Source: Streptomyces sp. NBC_00376 (GTDB taxonomy: Bacteria; Actinomycetota; Actinomycetes; Streptomycetales; Streptomycetaceae). Taken from it: DNA of 64,000 nucleotides. Shown piece after piece: positions 40,969 to 49,150 of the stretch. A program made the position numbers and the translations under genes. Each line of letters opens with the position of its first letter. The first letter of the stretch is position 1. The stretch covers positions 4,960,001 to 5,024,000 of the forward strand of contig NZ_CP107960.1 in the NCBI RefSeq assembly GCF_036077095.1, read 5' to 3'. The notes below the pieces were generated by a model that was not told where the DNA came from, did no database searches, and worked only from the letters and a program-made list of their open reading frames with translations.

Positions 40969-42431
40969 GCGACGACAAGAAGCGCCGCCTGTTCATCGGC
41001 GGCCGGTGGACCGAACCCGACCACGGCCACTACGAGGTGATCGACCCGGCCACCGAGGAGGTGGTCGGCCTCGCCCCGGAGGCGAGCCGCGAGCAGGTGC
41101 ACGCGGCGGTGGCCGCGGCCCGGGAGGCCTTCGGCACCTGGTCGCGCACCCGCCCCGAGGAGCGGGCCGAGATCCTCGACCGGGCGGCCGGCCTGATGCT
41201 GCGCGACCTCGACGGCAACGCCGCGCTCGCCCGCGCGGAGAGCGGTGCCACCACGGGGACGGCCCGCGGCATGCAGGTCGCCGTCGGTGCCTCCCGCTTC
41301 CGGCGGTACGCCAAGGGCGCGCTGGAGCCGGTCGAGGAGGCGATCACGCCGCAGATCAACGAGGCCGGGCCGATGGGGCGGGCGGGGGTCTTCGGGGCCC
41401 TGGCCGTGCGCCAGCCGGTCGGAGTCGTCACCTGCATCACCTCGTACAACAACCCCTGGGCCAACCCGGCGGGCAAGGTGGCGCCCGCGCTGGCCATGGG
41501 CAACACGGTTGTCGTGAAGCCCGCCCCGCAGGACCCGCTCTCCGTCTTCCGGATGGCCGAGGCACTGGAGGAGGCGGGCGTTCCGCCGGGCGTCGTCAAC
41601 GTCGTCACCGGGTCGGGCCCGGAGGCGGGCGAGGCGGCCGTCGACTCCCCGGACGTCGACATGGTCAGCTTCACCGGCTCCACGGGGGTCGGGCAGCGCA
41701 TCGCCGAGGTGTGCGGGCGCGGGATGAAGCGGCAGCTGATGGAGCTGGGCGGGAAGGGCGCAGCGGTCGTCCTCGACGACGCGGACCTCGACTCGGCGGT
41801 GGCGGGCATCGGCACCACGTTCTCCTTCTACAGCGGTCAGATCTGTACGGCTCCGACCCGGGTCCTGGTCCAGCGCGATGTCCATGACGCGCTGATCGAG
41901 AAGCTCGCCGTCTACGCCGGTCATCTGAAGGTGGGTGATCCGGCGGCCAGGGGCACGGTCGTCGGCCCGGTCATCTCGGCCACCCACCGCGACCGCGTCG
42001 AGTCGTACGTGGAGCTGGGCCGGAAGGAGGGGGCGAGGGTGGTCACGGGCGGCGAACGCCCGGCCGGACTCGACCGCGGTTTCTATGTCGCCCCGACCCT
42101 GCTCGCCGACTGCACCAACGACATGCGCGTCGTCCGCGAGGAGATCTTCGGCCCGGTCGTCGTGGTCGTTCCCTTCGACGACGAGGAGGAGGGCATCGCG
42201 CTGGCCAACGACAGCGACTACGGGCTGATCGACTACGTCTGGTCCTCGGACGTGGCCCGCGCCTTCCGGGTGGCCCGGCGGCTGCGGGCCGGCGGGGTCG
42301 GTGTGAACACCATCGGGCGGAACATGGAGGCCCCGTTCGGCGGGTTCAAGAAGAGCGGTGTCGGGCGCGATGTCGGCTCGTACGCCCTGCACGCGTACAG
42401 CGAACTCCAGTCGATCGTCTGGCCCGGCTGA
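40965..42431 (+). CDS. aldehyde dehydrogenase family protein
   Basis: 488-residue NAD(P)-dependent aldehyde dehydrogenase. Catalytic Cys294 in SGQICTAPTR, general-base Glu260 in LMELGGKGAAVVL, the NAD motif FTGSTGVGQRI and the C-terminal PFGGFKKSGVGRDVG. Usual length. It is coupled to the amidohydrolase by a 4-base overlap and should oxidise an aldehyde made in the same pathway to an acid. A 14-bp terminator follows 13 bases after the stop. Confidence 0.93.
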   Translation: MSDDKKRRLFIGGRWTEPDHGHYEVIDPATEEVVGLAPEASREQVHAAVAAAREAFGTWSRTRPEERAEILDRAAGLMLRDLDGNAALARAESGATTGTARGMQVAVGASRFRRYAKGALEPVEEAITPQINEAGPMGRAGVFGALAVRQPVGVVTCITSYNNPWANPAGKVAPALAMGNTVVVKPAPQDPLSVFRMAEALEEAGVPPGVVNVVTGSGPEAGEAAVDSPDVDMVSFTGSTGVGQRIAEVCGRGMKRQLMELGGKGAAVVLDDADLDSAVAGIGTTFSFYSGQICTAPTRVLVQRDVHDALIEKLAVYAGHLKVGDPAARGTVVGPVISATHRDRVESYVELGRKEGARVVTGGERPAGLDRGFYVAPTLLADCTNDMRVVREEIFGPVVVVVPFDDEEEGIALANDSDYGLIDYVWSSDVARAFRVARRLRAGGVGVNTIGRNMEAPFGGFKKSGVGRDVGSYALHAYSELQSIVWPG

Positions 42432-42443
42432 ACCGGTACGCGA

Positions 42444-42483
42444 CCGTGGGTGTCCGCTCAGCGGACACCCACGGGAAATTTTG
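42444..42483 (+). terminator. terminator after the aldehyde dehydrogenase
   Basis: CCGTGGGTGTCCGC (42444-42457) and GCGGACACCCACGG (42461-42474), perfect 14 bp, followed by GAAATTTT. The 195 bases from here to the permease are AT-rich for this genome and probably carry its promoter. Confidence 0.8.
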
Positions 42484-42678
42484 AATGCCCACAAAACGGA
42501 CAGCGCTGCGGTTCCCGTACGGTGCTGCGGTCGGGTCTCGACCTCGCATCGAAAGGTAGAAATCGCGAACGGCCTTCAATTAATCAAGGTCTTTCCGTAT
42601 TGTTACCTGGAATTCAAGGATGAGACAGCGGAGTCTCGCGTTCCGGATGTGGAAATCGTAGCGTTTATCGTCCTTTTC

Positions 42679-44244
42679 ATGACTCAGCTGGACGCGCGGC
42701 CACAGGCCGGAGACACAGTGAGGGGCGCCGACCCGGTCGACGGCGGCGTACGCGGCAAGGGCCTCGGCGGGAACTCCGTCGGCCTGATGGGCAGCGCCGT
42801 CATCGGCATCTCCACCGTCGCCCCCGTCTACTGCCTCACCTCCACCCTCGGCTCCACCGCGGGCGAGGTCGGCGTGCAGATGCCCGCCGTCTTCCTGGCC
42901 GGCTTCCTGCCGATGCTGCTCGTGGCCTTCGCGTACCGCGAGCTCAACAAGGCGATGCCGGACTGCGGCACCTCGTTCACCTGGACGGTCAAGGCGTTCG
43001 GTCCGCGCGTCGGCTGGATGTGCGGCTGGGGCCTGGTCATCGCGACGATCATCGTCCTGTCGAACCTGGCGGGCGTCGCCACGTCGTACTTCTGGCTGCT
43101 GGCGGGCGAGATCACCGGCAACAGCTCCATCGCCGCCCTGGACGACAACAAGCCCGTCCACATCGTCACCTGCCTCGCCCTGATCGCGGTCGCCACGGCG
43201 ATCAGCTACCGGGGGATGACGGCCACCAAGGGCATCCAGTACGCGCTGGTGGGGCTCCAACTCGTCGTCCTCGCGGTGTTCGTGGCGATGGCCGTGCAGA
43301 AGGCGCACAGCGGCGAGTTCGCCTCGTCGCTGGACTTCTCCTGGTCCTGGCTGAACCCGTTCGCCGTGCAGTCGTTCGCCGCGTTCACCGCCGGCCTGTC
43401 GCTGTCGATCTTCATGTTCTGGGGCTGGGACGCCTGTCTGACCGCCAACGAGGAGACCACCGGCAGCGAGAAGACCCCTGGGCGGGCCGCGCTCATCGCG
43501 ATGGTCGTGCTCGTCGGCTCCTACCTGGCGACCGGCGTCGCCGCCCAGATGGCAGTCGGATCCGGCACCTCCGGGCTCGGCCTGGCCAACCCCGGCACCT
43601 CCGACAACGTCTTCGCCGCGCTGGCCGGTCCGGTCATGGGCCCCGGCCTCGGCATCCTGCTCTTCGTCGCCGTGCTCGCCTCGGCCGCCGCGAGCCTGCA
43701 GACCACCTTCATCCCGGTGGCCCGCACGGTGCTCGCGATGTCCACGTACGAGGCCCTGCCCGCCTCGTACGCCCGGGTCCACCCGCGCTTCCGGACCCCG
43801 GGGAAGGCCACGATCACGGCGGGCGTCGCGACCGGTGTCTTCTACACGGTCATGACCCTGGTCAGCGAGCACGTCCTGGTCGACACGATCTACGCGCTCG
43901 GCCTCATGATCTGCTTCTACTACGCGCTGACGGCGTTCGCCTGCGTCTGGTTCTTCCGCGCCGACCTGACCCGCTCCTTCCGTGACCTGGTCTTCAAGGG
44001 CCTGTTCCCGGGTGTCGGCGGCATCCTGCTCACCGCGGTCTTCGGCAAGACCCTCTACGACATGTGGGACCCGGCCTACGGCTCCGGCTCGTCGGTCCTC
44101 GGGGTCGGCTCGGTGTTCGTCATCGGTGTCGGGCTGCTGCTGCTCGGCGTGGTGCTGATGCTGGTGATGCAGCGCCGCAGCCCGTCGTTCTTCCGCGGCG
44201 AGGTGCTGACCAAGGAGACCCCGGCGCTGGTCGTGGAGGACTGA
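42679..44244 (+). CDS. APC family amino acid permease
   Basis: 521-residue secondary transporter of the amino acid-polyamine-organocation superfamily with about 12 helices. The first unwound-helix motif is VGLMGSAVIGISTVAPVY; others are the helix near VFLAGFLPMLLVAFAYRELN and WGWDACLTANEETTGSEKTPG, a known APC signature region. ATG 42679 is chosen on content; no ribosome site is visible before it, and the open frame back to 42358 is not coding. Its position after the amidohydrolase/ALDH unit suggests uptake of the substrate of that pathway. Confidence 0.87.
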   Translation: MTQLDARPQAGDTVRGADPVDGGVRGKGLGGNSVGLMGSAVIGISTVAPVYCLTSTLGSTAGEVGVQMPAVFLAGFLPMLLVAFAYRELNKAMPDCGTSFTWTVKAFGPRVGWMCGWGLVIATIIVLSNLAGVATSYFWLLAGEITGNSSIAALDDNKPVHIVTCLALIAVATAISYRGMTATKGIQYALVGLQLVVLAVFVAMAVQKAHSGEFASSLDFSWSWLNPFAVQSFAAFTAGLSLSIFMFWGWDACLTANEETTGSEKTPGRAALIAMVVLVGSYLATGVAAQMAVGSGTSGLGLANPGTSDNVFAALAGPVMGPGLGILLFVAVLASAAASLQTTFIPVARTVLAMSTYEALPASYARVHPRFRTPGKATITAGVATGVFYTVMTLVSEHVLVDTIYALGLMICFYYALTAFACVWFFRADLTRSFRDLVFKGLFPGVGGILLTAVFGKTLYDMWDPAYGSGSSVLGVGSVFVIGVGLLLLGVVLMLVMQRRSPSFFRGEVLTKETPALVVED

Positions 44245-44263
44245 GCGGACCGGTGGGGCGTCC

Positions 44264-44303
44264 CGAAAACCCCGTGCGCGTGCGCACCGGGACGGGTTAG
44301 GGT
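44264..44303 (+). promoter_or_regulatory. WblC/WhiB7-type promoter for the glycosyltransferase leader
   Basis: An AT-rich GAAAA (44264-44268) lies five bases before a -35-like GTGCGC (44274-44279); after an 18-base spacer comes the -10 TAGGGT (44298-44303), six bases before the upstream-ORF ATG. An AT patch just ahead of a poor -35 is the pattern known for WhiB7/WblC-dependent antibiotic-response promoters. Confidence 0.5.
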
Positions 44304-44309
44304 CCCGGC

Positions 44310-44339
44310 ATGTACTTCATGTATCAGATCTACGGCTGA
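44310..44339 (+). CDS. nine-residue leader peptide MYFMYQIYG
   Basis: ATG 44310 to TGA 44339, starting six bases after a -10 box, so the mRNA is probably leaderless and the ribosome loads at its 5' end. Four of nine residues are aromatic (Tyr or Phe). It is followed after 4 bases by the first of two hairpins and by the macrolide glycosyltransferase gene 125 bases downstream. This is the layout of ribosome-sensing attenuators of antibiotic resistance genes. It might instead be a minimal ribosomal peptide precursor, which I consider less likely. Confidence 0.5.
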   Translation: MYFMYQIYG

Positions 44340-44343
44340 CACA

Positions 44344-44415
44344 GGGGCGGGGCACGTACCCCGTCCCGCCGCATCCGAGTGCGCCCACGGTGTTTCGTTC
44401 CCGTGGCCGGCGCAC
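44344..44415 (+). promoter_or_regulatory. two attenuator hairpins in the glycosyltransferase leader
   Basis: Hairpin 1: GGGGCGGGG (44344-44352) with CCCCGTCCC (44359-44367), one G-T pair, 6-base loop. Hairpin 2: GTGCGCC-CACGG (44379-44390) with CCGTG-GCC-GGCGCAC (44401-44415), a 12-bp stem with a 3-base bulge. They separate the upstream ORF from the glycosyltransferase gene and are candidates for terminator or anti-terminator. Confidence 0.5.
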
Positions 44416-44464
44416 CGGATCGCTGTGTCCCATTCACCGCAGATCTGAAAAGAAGTGATCCTTC

Positions 44465-45652
44465 ATGTCACGTCGCACCTCACGTCGCCGCGCCCATGTC
44501 GCGATGATCGGTATCCCCGCCGTCAGCCACGTCCTGCCCAGCCTTGAGGTCGTCCGGGAGCTGGTGGCCCGGGGCCACCGGGTGACCTACGCCAACGACC
44601 CGGCGGTGGCCGGGCTGATCGAGGCCACCGGCGCCGAGTTCGTCCCCTACAGCTCCGTGCTGCCGGTCGCCGACAACGACTGGCCCGAGGACCCCATCGG
44701 CGCGATGGGCGTCTTCCTCGACGACGCGGTCCAGGCGCTTCCGCAGCTGCGCGCCGTCTACGACCGCGACCCCGCGGACCTGTATCTCTACGACATCGGC
44801 GCCTACCCCGCGCGCGTCCTCGGCGAGACACAGGACCGCCCCCTCCTGCAGCTGTCCCCGACCTATGTGGGCTGGGAGGGGTACGACCAGGAGGTCGCCG
44901 CGGCCCTGTGGCAGCTGCCGGGCGCCGACGCCTACCTGGCCAGGTTCACCGGCTGGCTCGCCGACTGCGGGGCGACCACCGGCGACGTGGAGGCCTTCTG
45001 CGGGCCGCCCGCGCGGTCCCTGGCGCTGATCCCGAAGGCGATGCAGCCGCACGCCGACCGGGTCGACACCGGCACGGTCACCTTCGTCGGCCCGTGCTTC
45101 GGCACCCGGGCGGACACGGGGGAGTGGACGCGTCCCGCCGATGCCGAGAACGTGCTGCTGGTCTCGCTGGGGTCGGCGTTCACGAGGCGGCCGGAGTTCT
45201 ACCGCCAGTGCCTGGCCGCCTACGGCGACCTGCCCGGCTGGCACGTCGTGCTCCAGATCGGCAAGTACACGGACCCCGCGGAGCTCGGCGCCATCCCGGC
45301 CAATGTGGAAGTGCACTCCTGGGTGCCCCAGCTGGCGATCCTGGAACAGTCCGACGCCTTCGTCACCCACGCGGGCATGGGCGGCAGCAGCGAAGGGCTG
45401 TTCACCGGCACGCCGATGATCGCCGTCCCTCAGGCCGCCGATCAGTTCATGAACGCCGACCGGCTCGTCGAGCTGGGCGTGGCCCGCCGCATCGACACCG
45501 ACGAGGCCACCGCGGAGGCCCTGCGGACCGCCCTGACCGAACTGGTCGCCGATCCGGAGGTCGCCAGGCGCTCGGCGGCGCTCCGCGCCGAGGCGCGGGC
45601 GGAGGGCGGTACCTCGCGGGCCGCCGACCTCATCGAGGACATGCTGGGCTGA
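44465..45652 (+). CDS. mgt: macrolide-type glycosyltransferase (MGT/OleD family)
   Basis: 395-residue GT-B glycosyltransferase of family GT1. It resembles S. lividans Mgt and OleD along its length: HVAMIGIPAVSHVLPSLEVV, LYLYDIGAYPARVLGE, ALIPKAMQPHADRVD, LLVSLGSAF, VEVHSWVPQLAILEQ and FVTHAGMGGSSEGLFTGTP (nucleotide-sugar site). Those enzymes inactivate macrolides by glucosylation from UDP-glucose. Difference: VSHVLPS replaces the HGHVNPS of Mgt, so the catalytic His position needs checking. It is preceded by a leader ORF and hairpins, which suggests antibiotic-inducible expression. Self-resistance or detoxification is inferred. Confidence 0.88.
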   Translation: MSRRTSRRRAHVAMIGIPAVSHVLPSLEVVRELVARGHRVTYANDPAVAGLIEATGAEFVPYSSVLPVADNDWPEDPIGAMGVFLDDAVQALPQLRAVYDRDPADLYLYDIGAYPARVLGETQDRPLLQLSPTYVGWEGYDQEVAAALWQLPGADAYLARFTGWLADCGATTGDVEAFCGPPARSLALIPKAMQPHADRVDTGTVTFVGPCFGTRADTGEWTRPADAENVLLVSLGSAFTRRPEFYRQCLAAYGDLPGWHVVLQIGKYTDPAELGAIPANVEVHSWVPQLAILEQSDAFVTHAGMGGSSEGLFTGTPMIAVPQAADQFMNADRLVELGVARRIDTDEATAEALRTALTELVADPEVARRSAALRAEARAEGGTSRAADLIEDMLG

Positions 45653-45710
45653 CCGGGGCGCCGCAGCGGCGCCTCGGGCGGAGGGCGGTTCTCAGGGGTG
45701 AGAGCCGCCC

Positions 45711-46370
45711 TCAGGCGTGAGACCTGACGTCGTCCACGACGTGCTTGTCGAGTGCGGCGCGCACCAGGGCCGCCGCGAGCACGGCGACCTCGTGCCCGTC
45801 CGTCGGCCCGGCCGACCCCGCCAGCTCCACCAGCTTCGCCGGGGAGGCGGGCAGCCCCAGCCGTTCGGCGCCCTGGAGGGCCTTCCCGTCCACGAACGGG
45901 GCCACCTCCGGCCACACCGCCTGCACCTCGCGGACGAAGATGTCCGCACCGGCCGGGCCGATTCCCGGGGTGCGCCGCAGCCCGGCCCGCAGGGCGTCCA
46001 GGTCGCCGTCGGCCTCCTCGCGCAGGCGCCGCAGATCGCCGCCGCAGTCGGCCAGCAGGAGCTGCGCCCCCTCGCCGAGCTGGGTCGCGGTCCGCTCGTC
46101 GTAACGCCGGTAGCCGCCCTCGCCCAGTGCGTCCACCCGCTGCTGCCAGGTCGCCCCGGCCATCCGTTGCGGTGAGCGCATGCCGTGGGCGAACAGCGCA
46201 CGCGCCGCCGACACCGCCACGGAGGCGCGGATGCGGGCGCTCAGCAGATCGCTGAGGACGAGGAGTTGGTACAGCGGCTGCGGGGTGTTCCGCAGCCGGA
46301 TCCCGGCTTCGGCCGCGTACGTGGTTCCGCAGCGGGTGAGCAGGGCGTCCACGGTGTCGCGGGCGGTCAC
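45711..46370 (-). CDS. endonuclease III-like (HhH) DNA repair protein
   Basis: 219 residues from GTG 46370. The first part TVDALLTRCGTTYAAEAGIRL, the LLVLSDLLSARIRASVAVSAARALF helices and the helix-hairpin-helix GLRRTPGIGPAGADIFVRE resemble the endonuclease III/DNA glycosylase fold, but there is no Cys4 iron-sulfur loop and the usual catalytic Lys of bifunctional enzymes is not evident. It overlaps the LigD-type phosphoesterase stop (GTGA), implying a two-gene DNA repair unit. The activity is inferred. Confidence 0.7.
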   Translation of the reverse strand: MTARDTVDALLTRCGTTYAAEAGIRLRNTPQPLYQLLVLSDLLSARIRASVAVSAARALFAHGMRSPQRMAGATWQQRVDALGEGGYRRYDERTATQLGEGAQLLLADCGGDLRRLREEADGDLDALRAGLRRTPGIGPAGADIFVREVQAVWPEVAPFVDGKALQGAERLGLPASPAKLVELAGSAGPTDGHEVAVLAAALVRAALDKHVVDDVRSHA

Positions 46371-46936
46371 GGGGGCCCGCTGCCCTCCTCGGCCGCGACC
46401 TGGGCCAGGGTGCGGCCGGTGCGGGCCGAGCGTGCCAGGTACGGGTCCGGCAGGTCGGCACTCTCCTGGGTGGCCCGTCCGTCCTTGGCCTTGATCAGCA
46501 GCCACACCTCTTCGCCCGGGGCGTCGCCGCCCTTGAAGCGGGTGAGCGCGAACTCGCCCTGCAGTTTGGTCCCGTCGAGCCAGAACGTCGCGTGCCCGTC
46601 CTCCAGGGACTGCTCGAACGGCACGGGCGCACCCCACCGGTCGTGGCTGAGCGGCCGGTAGGTGCCCTGGTCCCAGACGATCACCGTGTCATCGCCGTAC
46701 TCGCCCTTCGCGATGACGCCCTCGAAGGTGCGGTACTCCAGCGGATGGTCCTCGGTGGGGACGGCCAGCCGTCGCACGCGAGGGTTCTCCGACGGGCCGC
46801 GCGGCACCGCCCACGACTTCAGTACGCCGCCGACTTCCAGCCGGAAGTCGAAGTGCATGCGCCGCGCCTGATGGATCTGCACGACGAAGCAGGGGGCCGG
46901 CCCCGTCCGATCGCCGTTGTCGCCGGTCCTGTCCAT
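46367..46936 (-). CDS. stand-alone LigD-type DNA 3'-phosphoesterase domain
   Basis: 189-residue protein matching the phosphoesterase (PE) module of bacterial NHEJ ligase D. The hallmark FVVQIHQARRMHFDFRLE carries the manganese-binding His and the Arg/Asp set; later blocks are LAVPTEDHPLEYRTFEG, VIAKGEYGDDTVIVWDQGTY and WLLIKAKDG. It should trim 3'-phosphates or ribonucleotides at DNA ends. No ligase or polymerase domain is attached. It is the first gene of a unit with the HhH protein. Confidence 0.9.
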   Translation of the reverse strand: MDRTGDNGDRTGPAPCFVVQIHQARRMHFDFRLEVGGVLKSWAVPRGPSENPRVRRLAVPTEDHPLEYRTFEGVIAKGEYGDDTVIVWDQGTYRPLSHDRWGAPVPFEQSLEDGHATFWLDGTKLQGEFALTRFKGGDAPGEEVWLLIKAKDGRATQESADLPDPYLARSARTGRTLAQVAAEEGSGPP

Positions 46937-47058
46937 CCGGACACCTCCTCCGGCAGCCCCGCCCGGTGTTCCCCTTCCACTGTGACGCCCCTGGTGGCGA
47001 AGCGCACCGGGACGGGTTCCGGCGCCGGTCCGGGGCCCGTCCGGAACCGGCCCTCACG

Positions 47059-47093
47059 CAAGTATCTCGCCATCAAGTATCTTGACATCGAGA
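47059..47093 (+). promoter_or_regulatory. MarR-like operator and -35 upstream of the MFS gene
   Basis: CAAGTATCT repeats at 47059 and 47074 (15-base period), and the dyad TCTTGA-CA-TCGAGA (47080-47093) contains a perfect TTGACA -35 (47082-47087). Such ATCTTGACATCGAGA-type sequences are typical MarR-family operators. Confidence 0.45.
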
Positions 47094-47152
47094 CTGTTTC
47101 CCCGGCAGTCTTCGTCCTGCTGTTCAAGATCTCTTGTCCGAGGGGGCGCGTG

Positions 47153-48508
47153 ATGCGGCGAGGCGAAGGGCGACGCGAAGGGCGAGGAAAGGGAAGCGGG
47201 CGGGAGCGCGGGCCGGGGTTGCTGGCGCAGTTGCGCAATCCGCCGGGCGGCCGCAACGCGCGGATCATGCTGCTCGCGCTGGCCGTGGACCGGACGGGCT
47301 CGGGGCTGTGGGCCGCGTCCTCTGTCCTGTACCTCACCTTCGTGACGCATCTGAGCGCCCAGCAGATCGGGGTGCTGCTGGGCGTGGCCGGAGTCGCGGG
47401 CATCGCCGGCTCCCCGCTGGCCGGGCGGCTGGCCGGCCGCTTCCCGGTGCGCGGGCTGCTGATCGGCTGTCACCTGCTCCGGCTGGTGACGCTCGGCCTG
47501 GTCCTGGTGTGCACGGGATTCGACGCGCTGCTCCCCGTGGTCGCCGTGACCTATCTGGGCGACCGGGCCGCCAAGACGCTGGAGATGCTCTTTGCCACCC
47601 GGGCCGCAGGCGAGCGCCGCGCCGCGTACCAGGCGCTGTCGCGCAGCGCGGCCAATGCGGGCTACGGCGTCGGCGCGGGGCTCGCGGCCATCGGCCTGGC
47701 GGTGGGGACCACGGGCGCCTACCGCGTCCTGATCCTGGGCAACGCGCTCTCGTTCGTCGTCGCCGCGGTGCTGGTGTGGCGTACCGGCGAGCCGGCGGGG
47801 AGCGCCGTCGAGGTGGCGCGGTCCGGGGGTGCGGCACCCGCTGCTCCGGTACCGGACGGGCGGGCTCCCGCCCGGAGGTCCAGCCCGTGGCGGGACCGGG
47901 GGTACCTCAAGTTCGCCCTCCTGGACATCCCGATGAACCTCGACGACTCGGTCCTCGCCGTCGGCCTGCCGCTGTGGCTGGTGAACCGCACCTCCGCGCC
48001 GCACGCCCTGGTCCCGGCCTTCCTGGTCATCAACACCGTGCTGGTGGTGGTGCTCCAGCTGAGCGTGTCGAAGCGGGCGGAGGGGCCGCGCCGGGCGACC
48101 CGGGCGGTGTTGCTGTACGGAGTCCTGATGTTCGTGTGCTGCGGCTTGCTGGCCGCCGCCACCCGGGGCGGGGCCTGGGTGGCCGGGGCGGTCCTGCTCG
48201 CGGCGGCGCTGCTGGTCACGCTGGCGGAGCTGATGCGGTCGGTGAGTTCGTGGGAGCTCGCGGTGCTGCTCGCGCCGCAGGACGCCCGCGCCGCGTATCT
48301 GGGGGTGGCCGGAATGTCGCAGTCCATCCAGAAGTCCGCCGGGCCACCGCTGCTGACCGGTGTGGTGATGGCCGCCGGACCGGTGGGCTGGCTGGTGCTC
48401 GGGGCGGCGGTCGCGGGCCTGGCGGTCGTGCAGCGACGGGCCTGTGTGCGGCGGCTCGGCATCGGCTCGCCCCGGTCCGAGGATGCCGCCACCCTCACTG
48501 TTAGGTAG
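47153..48508 (+). CDS. MFS transporter
   Basis: 451-residue major facilitator superfamily exporter with about 12 helices and a polar central loop (about 215-245). ATG 47153 has AGGGGG seven bases upstream; the N-terminal 25 residues are Arg/Gly-rich. Conserved loop regions GSPLAGRLAGRFPVR (the A-motif area) and PAYQALSRSAANAGYG-like AAYQALSRSAANAGYGV. Its stop overlaps the palindrome in front of the TetR gene. Drug efflux is likely but the substrate is unknown. Confidence 0.88.
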   Translation: MRRGEGRREGRGKGSGRERGPGLLAQLRNPPGGRNARIMLLALAVDRTGSGLWAASSVLYLTFVTHLSAQQIGVLLGVAGVAGIAGSPLAGRLAGRFPVRGLLIGCHLLRLVTLGLVLVCTGFDALLPVVAVTYLGDRAAKTLEMLFATRAAGERRAAYQALSRSAANAGYGVGAGLAAIGLAVGTTGAYRVLILGNALSFVVAAVLVWRTGEPAGSAVEVARSGGAAPAAPVPDGRAPARRSSPWRDRGYLKFALLDIPMNLDDSVLAVGLPLWLVNRTSAPHALVPAFLVINTVLVVVLQLSVSKRAEGPRRATRAVLLYGVLMFVCCGLLAAATRGGAWVAGAVLLAAALLVTLAELMRSVSSWELAVLLAPQDARAAYLGVAGMSQSIQKSAGPPLLTGVVMAAGPVGWLVLGAAVAGLAVVQRRACVRRLGIGSPRSEDAATLTVR

Positions 48509-48522
48509 ACTGACCTACCTAA
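48501..48522. promoter_or_regulatory. 22-bp palindrome, TetR auto-operator
   Basis: TTAGGTAG-ACTGAC-CTACCTAA, perfect 8-bp arms around a 6-base centre. It covers the MFS stop codon and ends 17 bases before the TetR ATG, right over its ribosome-site and promoter region. Confidence 0.65.
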
Positions 48523-48538
48523 TTAGGAGGTGGGCGGC

Positions 48539-49150
48539 ATGGGCGAGGCGAAGCCCGAGGAGAAGCAGCCGGTGAAGCGGCGGCGCGGGGCGGCGCGCGG
48601 GCGGATTCTCGACGCCGCCGCGCGCCGGTTCTACGCGGACGGCGTGGCGGCGACGGGCATCGACACGATCACGGCCGAGGCCGGCGTCGCGAAGATGAGC
48701 CTCTACAACAACTTCGACTCCAAGGCCGACCTGGTCTGTGCCTACCTCCGGGCCAGGCACGAGGAGTGGCTCGACCTCTACCGGCGGCGCCTGGCCGACG
48801 CGCAGGGACCGGCGGAGGCCGTGCTGGCCGTCTTCGACGCCTACGCCGACCACGCCGATTTCGCCTACGAGCACGGCTTCCGGGGCTGCGGCCTGCTCAA
48901 CGCGGCCGCCGAACTGCCCACCGGGCACGAGGGCCGGACCGTGGTGCGCCACCACAAGGAACAGGTCGAGGGCCTGCTCGCCGCCCACCTCCAGGAGCTG
49001 CTGCCCGGCCGCGACGAGCAGGCCCGGTCCGTGGCGGAGCACCTGGCGTTCCTGCTCGAAGGGGCCATCGTGCGCGCGGGCCTCGAAGGCGACGGCACGC
49101 GCATGCGGCGCGCCCGGGACCTGGCGGCATCCCTGGTGGGCGCCCTGTGA
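48539..49150 (+). CDS. TetR family transcriptional regulator
   Basis: 203 residues. HTH: GRILDAAARRFYADGVAATG, then IDTITAEAGVAKMSLYNNFDSK, close to the AcrR/TetR consensus. ATG 48539 is eight bases after AGGAGG; the GTG at 48530 overlaps that ribosome site and is unlikely. The ligand domain contains two Cys near GFRGCGLLNAA. It overlaps the EamA gene by 4 bases (GTGA), so it probably controls that exporter together with itself through the 22-bp palindrome. Confidence 0.92.
   Translation: MGEAKPEEKQPVKRRRGAARGRILDAAARRFYADGVAATGIDTITAEAGVAKMSLYNNFDSKADLVCAYLRARHEEWLDLYRRRLADAQGPAEAVLAVFDAYADHADFAYEHGFRGCGLLNAAAELPTGHEGRTVVRHHKEQVEGLLAAHLQELLPGRDEQARSVAEHLAFLLEGAIVRAGLEGDGTRMRRARDLAASLVGAL

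Follow-up and report, generated by a model that had tools for sequence, protein, structure and literature searches.

What does a nine-codon open reading frame do between a promoter and a gene for a macrolide-family glycosyltransferase (GT)? The question is raised by a window of 64,000 nt from Streptomyces sp. NBC_00376 (NZ_CP107960.1, 4,960,001–5,024,000), in which positions are counted from the first letter. The GT gene lies on the plus strand at 44465–45652 and encodes 395 amino acids. Its product scored above the curated cut-off for TIGR01426, the family of macrolide glycosyltransferases (389.9 bits; cut-off 260). The score against NF033129, the macrolide-inactivating Mgt model, was 538.9 bits and thus below the curated cut-off of 700, so we leave the enzyme outside Mgt proper. 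Its best matches among solved structures are oleandomycin glycosyltransferases, and the named rows among the 120 database relatives listed mostly read 'macrolide family glycosyltransferase'.

An amino-acid permease gene (42358–44244) precedes the GT gene, and the leader described here sits in the intergenic stretch between the two. On the 3' side of the GT gene lie a gene for a LigD 3'-phosphoesterase-domain protein (46367–46936, minus strand), an MFS transporter gene (within 46592–48508) and a TetR-type regulator gene (48530–49150). We saw no connection between these neighbours in 46367–49150 and the leader.

A WblC-type promoter in front of a leaderless-type upstream ORF

The intergenic stretch reads, on the plus strand, GAAAAC (44265–44270), CCC, GTGCGC (44274–44279), 18 nt, TAGGGT (44298–44303), CCCGGC and the ATG at 44310. 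The published WblC promoter consensus consists of GAAAWY, 3 nt, the −35 region, a spacer of 16–19 nt and TANNNT (PMC7157823). The box, the 18-nt spacer and the −10 element of the window fit this consensus exactly, whereas the −35 region is a weak match to TKGMNN that differs at its first base. Among 101 leader promoters that were distinct, N-free and complete, a strict GAAAWY box at the published spacing occurred in 31 (shuffle mean 0.1), and a relaxed WblC-type pattern of our own in 65 (shuffle mean 0.8). The −10 element was exactly TAGGGT in 26 of 57 leader promoters. These counts support a WblC-type promoter, as the sequence-only reading of this DNA had proposed, and WblC itself would act there. 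Most start sites of WblC promoters fall 7–8 bp past the −10 element (PMC7157823), so transcription in the window is expected to start on the A of the upstream ATG or one base later.

The ATG, 6 nt past the −10 element, opens an upstream ORF (uORF; 44310–44339, plus strand) that encodes MYFMYQIYG-stop. The distance from its stop to the GT start is 125 nt. In 57 rows, comprising 56 related loci found by pattern and the window, the uORF start lies 6 nt (12 rows) or 7 nt (45 rows) past TANNNT, where the pattern allowed 5–8. The peptides of these rows have 7–9 residues, with 4–10 allowed, and all finish with [I/L/M/F]-Y-[G/S]-stop. When the matches of a 15-mer scan (see below) are included, the length ranges over 7–10 residues and the end stays constant, mostly as Q-[I/L]-Y-G-stop.

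The starts of the peptides are diverse, as in MNIVQLYG, MDSFLQIYG and MHLFQIYG. Among 76 distinct leaders, the Tyr two codons before the stop is invariant (76/76). The final Gly is replaced by Glu in two leaders and by Ser in two; the Gln is replaced by Pro in two, by Arg in one and by Leu in one. The codon six before the stop has T as its middle base in 71 of the 76 leaders, with an entropy of 0.40 against 1.45 for the first base and 1.22 for the third, so that a hydrophobic residue is kept there. This test is not clean because the same U may also pair with the Shine-Dalgarno (SD) region. With the present comparisons, the constraints from RNA pairing and from the peptide are not fully separable. 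Four of the 76 leaders use GTG instead of ATG as the uORF start. The aromatic peptide of the window therefore stands in part: the uORF is real, but its aromatic start is not conserved, only the [I/L]-Y-G end and the hydrophobic position six codons before the stop.

The leader is conserved in front of related GT genes

A scan with one genome per species yielded 128 GT relatives; the comparison uses the best 80 loci. The leader precedes the GT gene in 58 of these 80 loci, 56 found by pattern and two Actinoalloteichus loci (L031 and L032, both with the peptide MAFLPIYE) by a covariance model. Grouped by record titles, it is present in 48 of 55 Streptomyces loci and in 10 of 25 others. The latter belong to Pseudofrankia, Parafrankia, Sphaerimonospora, Nocardia (two), Actinoalloteichus (two), Nonomuraea, a record titled Rhodococcus and Actinocorallia (L050, a doubtful member). 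The record titled Rhodococcus sp. JCM 9791 (L044) carries a label clash, as tree taxonomy places it in Cyanobacteriota. Absence of the uORF from homologous loci, named beforehand as an outcome that would speak against the leader, was thus not what we found. Similar uORFs do stand before GT genes in other Streptomyces, though their MY... aromatic start is not kept.

On the GT tree, the leader label requires 11 changes against 19.5 for shuffled labels, with none of 500 shuffles as low. The leader occurs on both sides of the midpoint root of this tree, whose bootstrap had not converged. This distribution is as expected if the leader were old and had been lost several times.

An acetyltransferase gene lies upstream of the GT gene in 26 of 81 rows, once on the opposite strand (L017). 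We take these genes to be vat-like on the basis of a WWDWP stretch. In 18 rows the gap between this gene and the GT gene is 155–374 nt, and the leader is present in all of them. Eight of the 22 leaderless loci (L024, L040, L048, L065, L068, L069, L072 and L075) have a vat-like gene ending only 9–154 nt before the GT match; all loci with so short a gap lack the leader. This suggests that the GT gene has joined another transcript there.

The link to the enzyme was also approached through the 15-mer CAGHTCTACGGCTGA, which is blind to start codon, promoter and enzyme. In 392 genomes of the same genus it gave 66 matches in 64 genomes, compared with 3 matches for the reversed pattern. The 15-mer was drawn from known leaders and the genomes partly overlap the named species (11 identical leaders), so the scan is not an independent sample. 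Besides the window there were 65 matches, and 56 of these showed a −10 element, a gap of 6–7 nt, an in-frame start and a GT gene. The uORF start was in frame in 56 of 56 GT-linked matches. The GT match, 69–86% identical, begins 88–255 nt past the uORF stop. The other 9 of 65 matches had neither leader nor GT in the 0.8–1.7 kb read downstream (least for L120). Three of the matches (L127, L137 and L138) share downstream sequence after the 15-mer, without GT or leader.

Of the 59 leaders at the 58 loci and in the window, 32 were used to build a covariance model, R1. It recovered 26 of the 27 leaders outside its training set and missed the doubtful L050. The lowest scores were those of L073 (31.7 bits), L044 (28.9), L037 (22.8, where masking interrupts the match) and L071 (18.8, E 0.032). 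On the strand opposite to leaders, 36 mirror matches of up to 30.5 bits turned up in this search, besides 3 of 13.4–14.9 bits elsewhere; these four leaders therefore rest on their sequence more than on their score. In a search of 26 genomes, with 118 first-look candidates scored per genome, R1 matched in three, the window's included, always at GT loci. As far as the exact 15-mer and R1 in 26 genomes show, the leader appears tied to the GT enzyme; leaders with other peptides before other genes could escape both searches. Rfam gave no family match for window positions 44200–44560; the best score was 16.4 bits, where the gathering score is 80.

The uORF pairs with the strand beside the GT ribosome-binding site

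Of 200 dinucleotide shuffles of the window RNA from 44310 to 44520, 199 fold less well than the original (z −2.96). The native fold contains a long-range helix, P1, which the sequence-only reading had missed. In P1, codons of the uORF are paired with the sequence adjacent to the GT ribosome-binding site, and both hairpins of the leader lie within the helix. In P1a, the codons Gln-Ile-Tyr-Gly (44325–44335) pair with 44437–44447 in 10 of 11 positions, with probabilities of 0.96–1.0. The 3' strand lies just upstream of the GT SD region, GAAGTGA (44452–44458, 6 nt before the ATG at 44465), and ends 4 nt before it. In P1b, the end of the stop codon and the next bases (44338–44343) pair with 44424–44429 (probabilities 0.78–0.97). 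A third segment, P1c, consists of ACTTC in codons 2–3 (44314–44318), which is complementary to the GAAGT of the SD. P1c is a minority state in the window (probability 0.30–0.34). Its rival is a local stem across the GT start, and with either of them the start region is largely paired. All of these elements are on the plus strand.

The two hairpins that had been noticed between uORF and GT both exist in the window. Hairpin 1 has a 9-bp stem (44344–44367; 44344–44352 with 44359–44367), and hairpin 2 a compound stem (44371–44423; 44371–44392 with 44400–44423) with compensatory changes in related leaders. They are, however, unlikely to be the switch, as several leaders lack one while P1 is nearly universal: among the short leaders, L046 and L057, for instance, are without hairpin 1 and have a single hairpin. 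In one leader (L001:2789–2991), hairpin 2 is by eye duplicated in tandem along with the 3' strand of P1b.

By comparison, P1 is the most constant structural part, kept in nearly all leaders. For pairing and energy we pooled 115 leaders (59, and 56 from the scan) and removed 28 without the SD pattern and 11 duplicates, leaving 76, of which 72 entered the duplex and SD-accessibility tests and 75 the opening-cost test; as the 28 include a second leader group, the figures describe the main one. Ungapped P1a pairs number 10 or more out of 12 in 67 of the 76 distinct leaders, against 1.5% in shuffles of the 3' region. Duplexes of each uORF with its own 3' arm (−28.8 kcal/mol) are more stable than swapped ones (−27.1 kcal/mol; 0 of 2000 permutations as low). 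The first codons likewise pair better with their own SD tail than with swapped partners (6 of 2000 permutations as low; 72 leaders). In an alignment of 32 leaders, the first codons pair with the GAGTG of the SD (columns 9–12 with 180–184) in 89% of cells.

Over the whole structure of this alignment, 31 cells are changed on both sides, compared with 13.4 in shuffles (0 of 500 as high), almost all of them in hairpin 2 and the stem closing it. This structure derives from the fold of a single member (L023), from which 8 poor pairs were removed, and so has an advantage in the slide control. Shuffles and swaps are free of this bias but take no account of relatedness, and kinship alone can produce values beyond theirs. 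No P1 pair is changed on both sides among the 32 leaders, which do not include Actinoalloteichus. With two strands so nearly invariant, P1 offers little classic covariation. In the two Actinoalloteichus leaders, CAG..GGC has become CCG..GAG and the partner is altered to match, so that three P1a pairs are changed on both sides; this is a single event in two close relatives. In L073, where the uORF ends in TAG and ungapped P1a pairs number only 7 of 12, the bases past the stop have changed together with the 3' strand, and by eye a shifted pairing is kept.

RNAalifold on the raw MAFFT alignment of 52 leaders returned 3 local pairs and did not find P1, probably because of misaligned hairpins and mixed leader lengths. 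P1 was instead examined by a named structure, single folds, partner swaps and ungapped pairing.

At the fourth P1a position (44328 with 44444 in the window), 60 of 75 leaders have a mismatch flanked by neighbours that almost always pair, which looks like retention of the mismatch. The pair is intact in the other 15 leaders, the window among them.

A ribosome on the uORF is predicted to open the GT start region

A ribosome was mimicked by blocking the uORF and 12 nt beyond it; the control was a block in mid-leader of the same length, or shorter in short leaders. The mean cost of opening the GT start region fell from 16.1 kcal/mol in the free RNA to 10.7 kcal/mol with the uORF block, compared with 16.05 for the control. 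The uORF block lowered the cost in 71 of 75 leaders; the drop exceeded 2 kcal/mol in 64 of 75 (control, 2 of 75). The SD alone responded less: its mean unpaired probability rose from 0.29 to 0.38, with an increase in 48 of 72 leaders, and gained more than 0.2 in 21 of 72 (control, 0 of 72). A sequestering structure linked to the uORF is thus present by comparison and by computation, and the SD itself is only partly covered. The start region opens to much the same extent whichever uORF codon is blocked, slightly more at the first codons, codon 1 among them. As all positions work alike, the computation points to no single stall codon or drug; in this model, the GT gene should be released by a ribosome on the uORF regardless of what detains it.

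A translational attenuator as the preferred explanation

Comparison across loci points to a leaderless-type uORF, P1, a link to the GT gene and a WblC-type box as the shared parts of the leader. We consider it likely that they form a translational attenuator of the cat/erm kind with a layout of its own and a putative drug response. The sequence-only reading had seen an attenuation-like layout in this locus, and the presence of the leader before the GT gene in 58 of 80 loci agrees with it.

According to this proposal, WblC and the housekeeping sigma factor would start transcription at the uORF ATG or 1–2 bases from it, judging from the spacing. Without drug, ribosomes would traverse the 8–9 codons and leave, and the freed uORF strand would pair through P1 beside and partly over the GT SD, a step that comparison supports; this pairing would keep GT translation low. 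A ribosome held on the uORF would cover the 5' strand of P1, upon which the start region is computed to open, and GT would be made. The attenuator probably responds to ribosome-targeting drugs as inducers. The drug would most likely be a macrolide, with a putative stall site near the stop-anchored [I/L]-Y-G end. We propose a macrolide because the enzyme family is named for it and because known macrolide leaders have lengths similar to those seen here.

The same P1 switch could also respond to another trigger. Any slow ribosome, whether halted by one of many drugs or by an uncharged tRNA, might open P1, with the peptide being incidental. Such a general sensor of ribosome occupancy or amino-acid supply would agree with the nearly equal effect of every codon position in the model, codon 1 being slightly best, with the widely varying peptide starts and with the response of WblC expression to many drugs and starvation (PMC12421871, PMC11550727). 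It accounts less well for the invariant Tyr two codons before the stop (76/76) and the hydrophobic residue six codons before it in most leaders, part of which RNA pairing explains. We regard this general sensor as unlikely, although a serious contender; as it overlaps with the preferred attenuator, the likelihoods of the two are not exclusive. At the other extreme, a drug-binding RNA or stability element without any role for uORF translation would be in keeping with the conservation of P1 and hairpin 2 as RNA. An in-frame start 6–7 nt from the −10 element in 56 of 56 GT-linked matches, the exchange of ATG for GTG in 4 of 76 leaders and the middle-base conservation six codons before the stop make it very improbable, and we set it aside. 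GC-rich stems and short ORFs are to be expected in such DNA, so an accidental ORF beside ordinary hairpins had to be considered. Its conservation in 58 of 80 loci and its link to the GT gene refute this; we give mere chance practically no credence.

The uORF could instead set the balance between read-through and premature termination within the leader. Transcription attenuation of this type is described in actinobacteria for wblC/whiB7 (PMC11550727) and in Streptomyces for ARE5 ABCF genes (PMC12421871), leader peptides without a typical U-run terminator are reported from S. lividans (PMC8079986), and at cplR transcription and translation levels act together (PMC10201436). Hairpin 2 is strong, in keeping with such a role. 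Yet it is with the sequence next to the GT start that the uORF has conserved pairing, and not with a terminator arm. Within 44000–45700, the region of the window that was scanned, no intrinsic-terminator-like site was found, and an intrinsic terminator in the window's leader was rejected. We therefore consider termination in the leader quite improbable, and the translational attenuator remains our preferred reading.

Relation to known attenuators

Like attenuators of the cat/ermC type, the leader places a short uORF before a putative gene for resistance to a ribosome-targeting drug and would hold the SD region in a stem until a stalled ribosome opens it; the ribosome on cat leaders also masks the 5' strand of the stem directly. 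Unlike them, it has a leaderless uORF under a WblC-type promoter, and its target encodes a macrolide-family glycosyltransferase. The uORF codons themselves pair next to the start of this gene, at a distance of more than 100 nt in the window, and the helix encloses hairpins. Most of what is understood about inducible macrolide resistance comes from erm, cat and ABC-F leaders. By its title, a study by Jenkins and Cundliffe from 1991 is said to concern inducible lincomycin and macrolide resistance from two S. lividans genes. The same study is cited for the S. lividans MGT in PMC8657839.

Within actinobacteria, the wblC/whiB7 attenuator also uses a uORF and answers translation stress; as described in PMC11550727, it works by transcription attenuation with a Rho-independent terminator, whereas the window's leader shows no terminator and its uORF pairs at the region of the GT start. 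The Streptomyces ARE5 ABCF leaders tiaA and are5sc are likewise antibiotic-sensing uORFs before resistance genes. Unlike the leader described here, their uORFs encode MVGDDDISG and MLV and have predicted terminator and anti-terminator forms, and in the toeprints given in the same source erythromycin did not stall them (PMC12421871). Short leaderless uORFs followed by hairpins are also described from S. lividans, where they differ in serving amino-acid and tRNA-ligase genes and in holding codons of the amino acid concerned (PMC8079986).

In the open-access literature, a scope outside which most subscription papers fall, we found no report of this leader. The leader is real, widely conserved in actinobacteria and, as far as the searches show, dedicated to the GT gene; it seems as yet undescribed. 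More tentatively, and with more doubt than confidence, we suggest an undescribed family of RNA and leader peptide for macrolide glycosyltransferases, in which one leaderless ORF of 8–9 codons would combine the roles of a promoter-proximal start, a nascent peptide that senses the drug and an RNA strand directed against the start. In this family, [I/L]-Y-G-stop would be a new stop-anchored arrest sequence, and a kept mismatch would tune the release of the helix. To our knowledge, [I/L]-Y-G-stop matches none of the known macrolide arrest motifs.

Macrolide-family GTs of many actinobacteria have this one dedicated leader in common, which would couple a WblC-type promoter to a post-transcriptional gate by means of a leaderless uORF. 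It offers a testable minimal system for leaderless ribosomes as sensors, as well as a candidate for a new drug-dependent arrest sequence. The covariance model R1, which gives one match in the window's own genome, can be used to annotate GT genes of this kind. A second group of leaders (L090, L094, L098, L108, L110, L115, L122, L132, L136, L141 and L153), which lies outside the energy tests, has GAAGGAA-type or otherwise different ribosome-binding sites and, by eye, a shorter P1a with the same uORF end.
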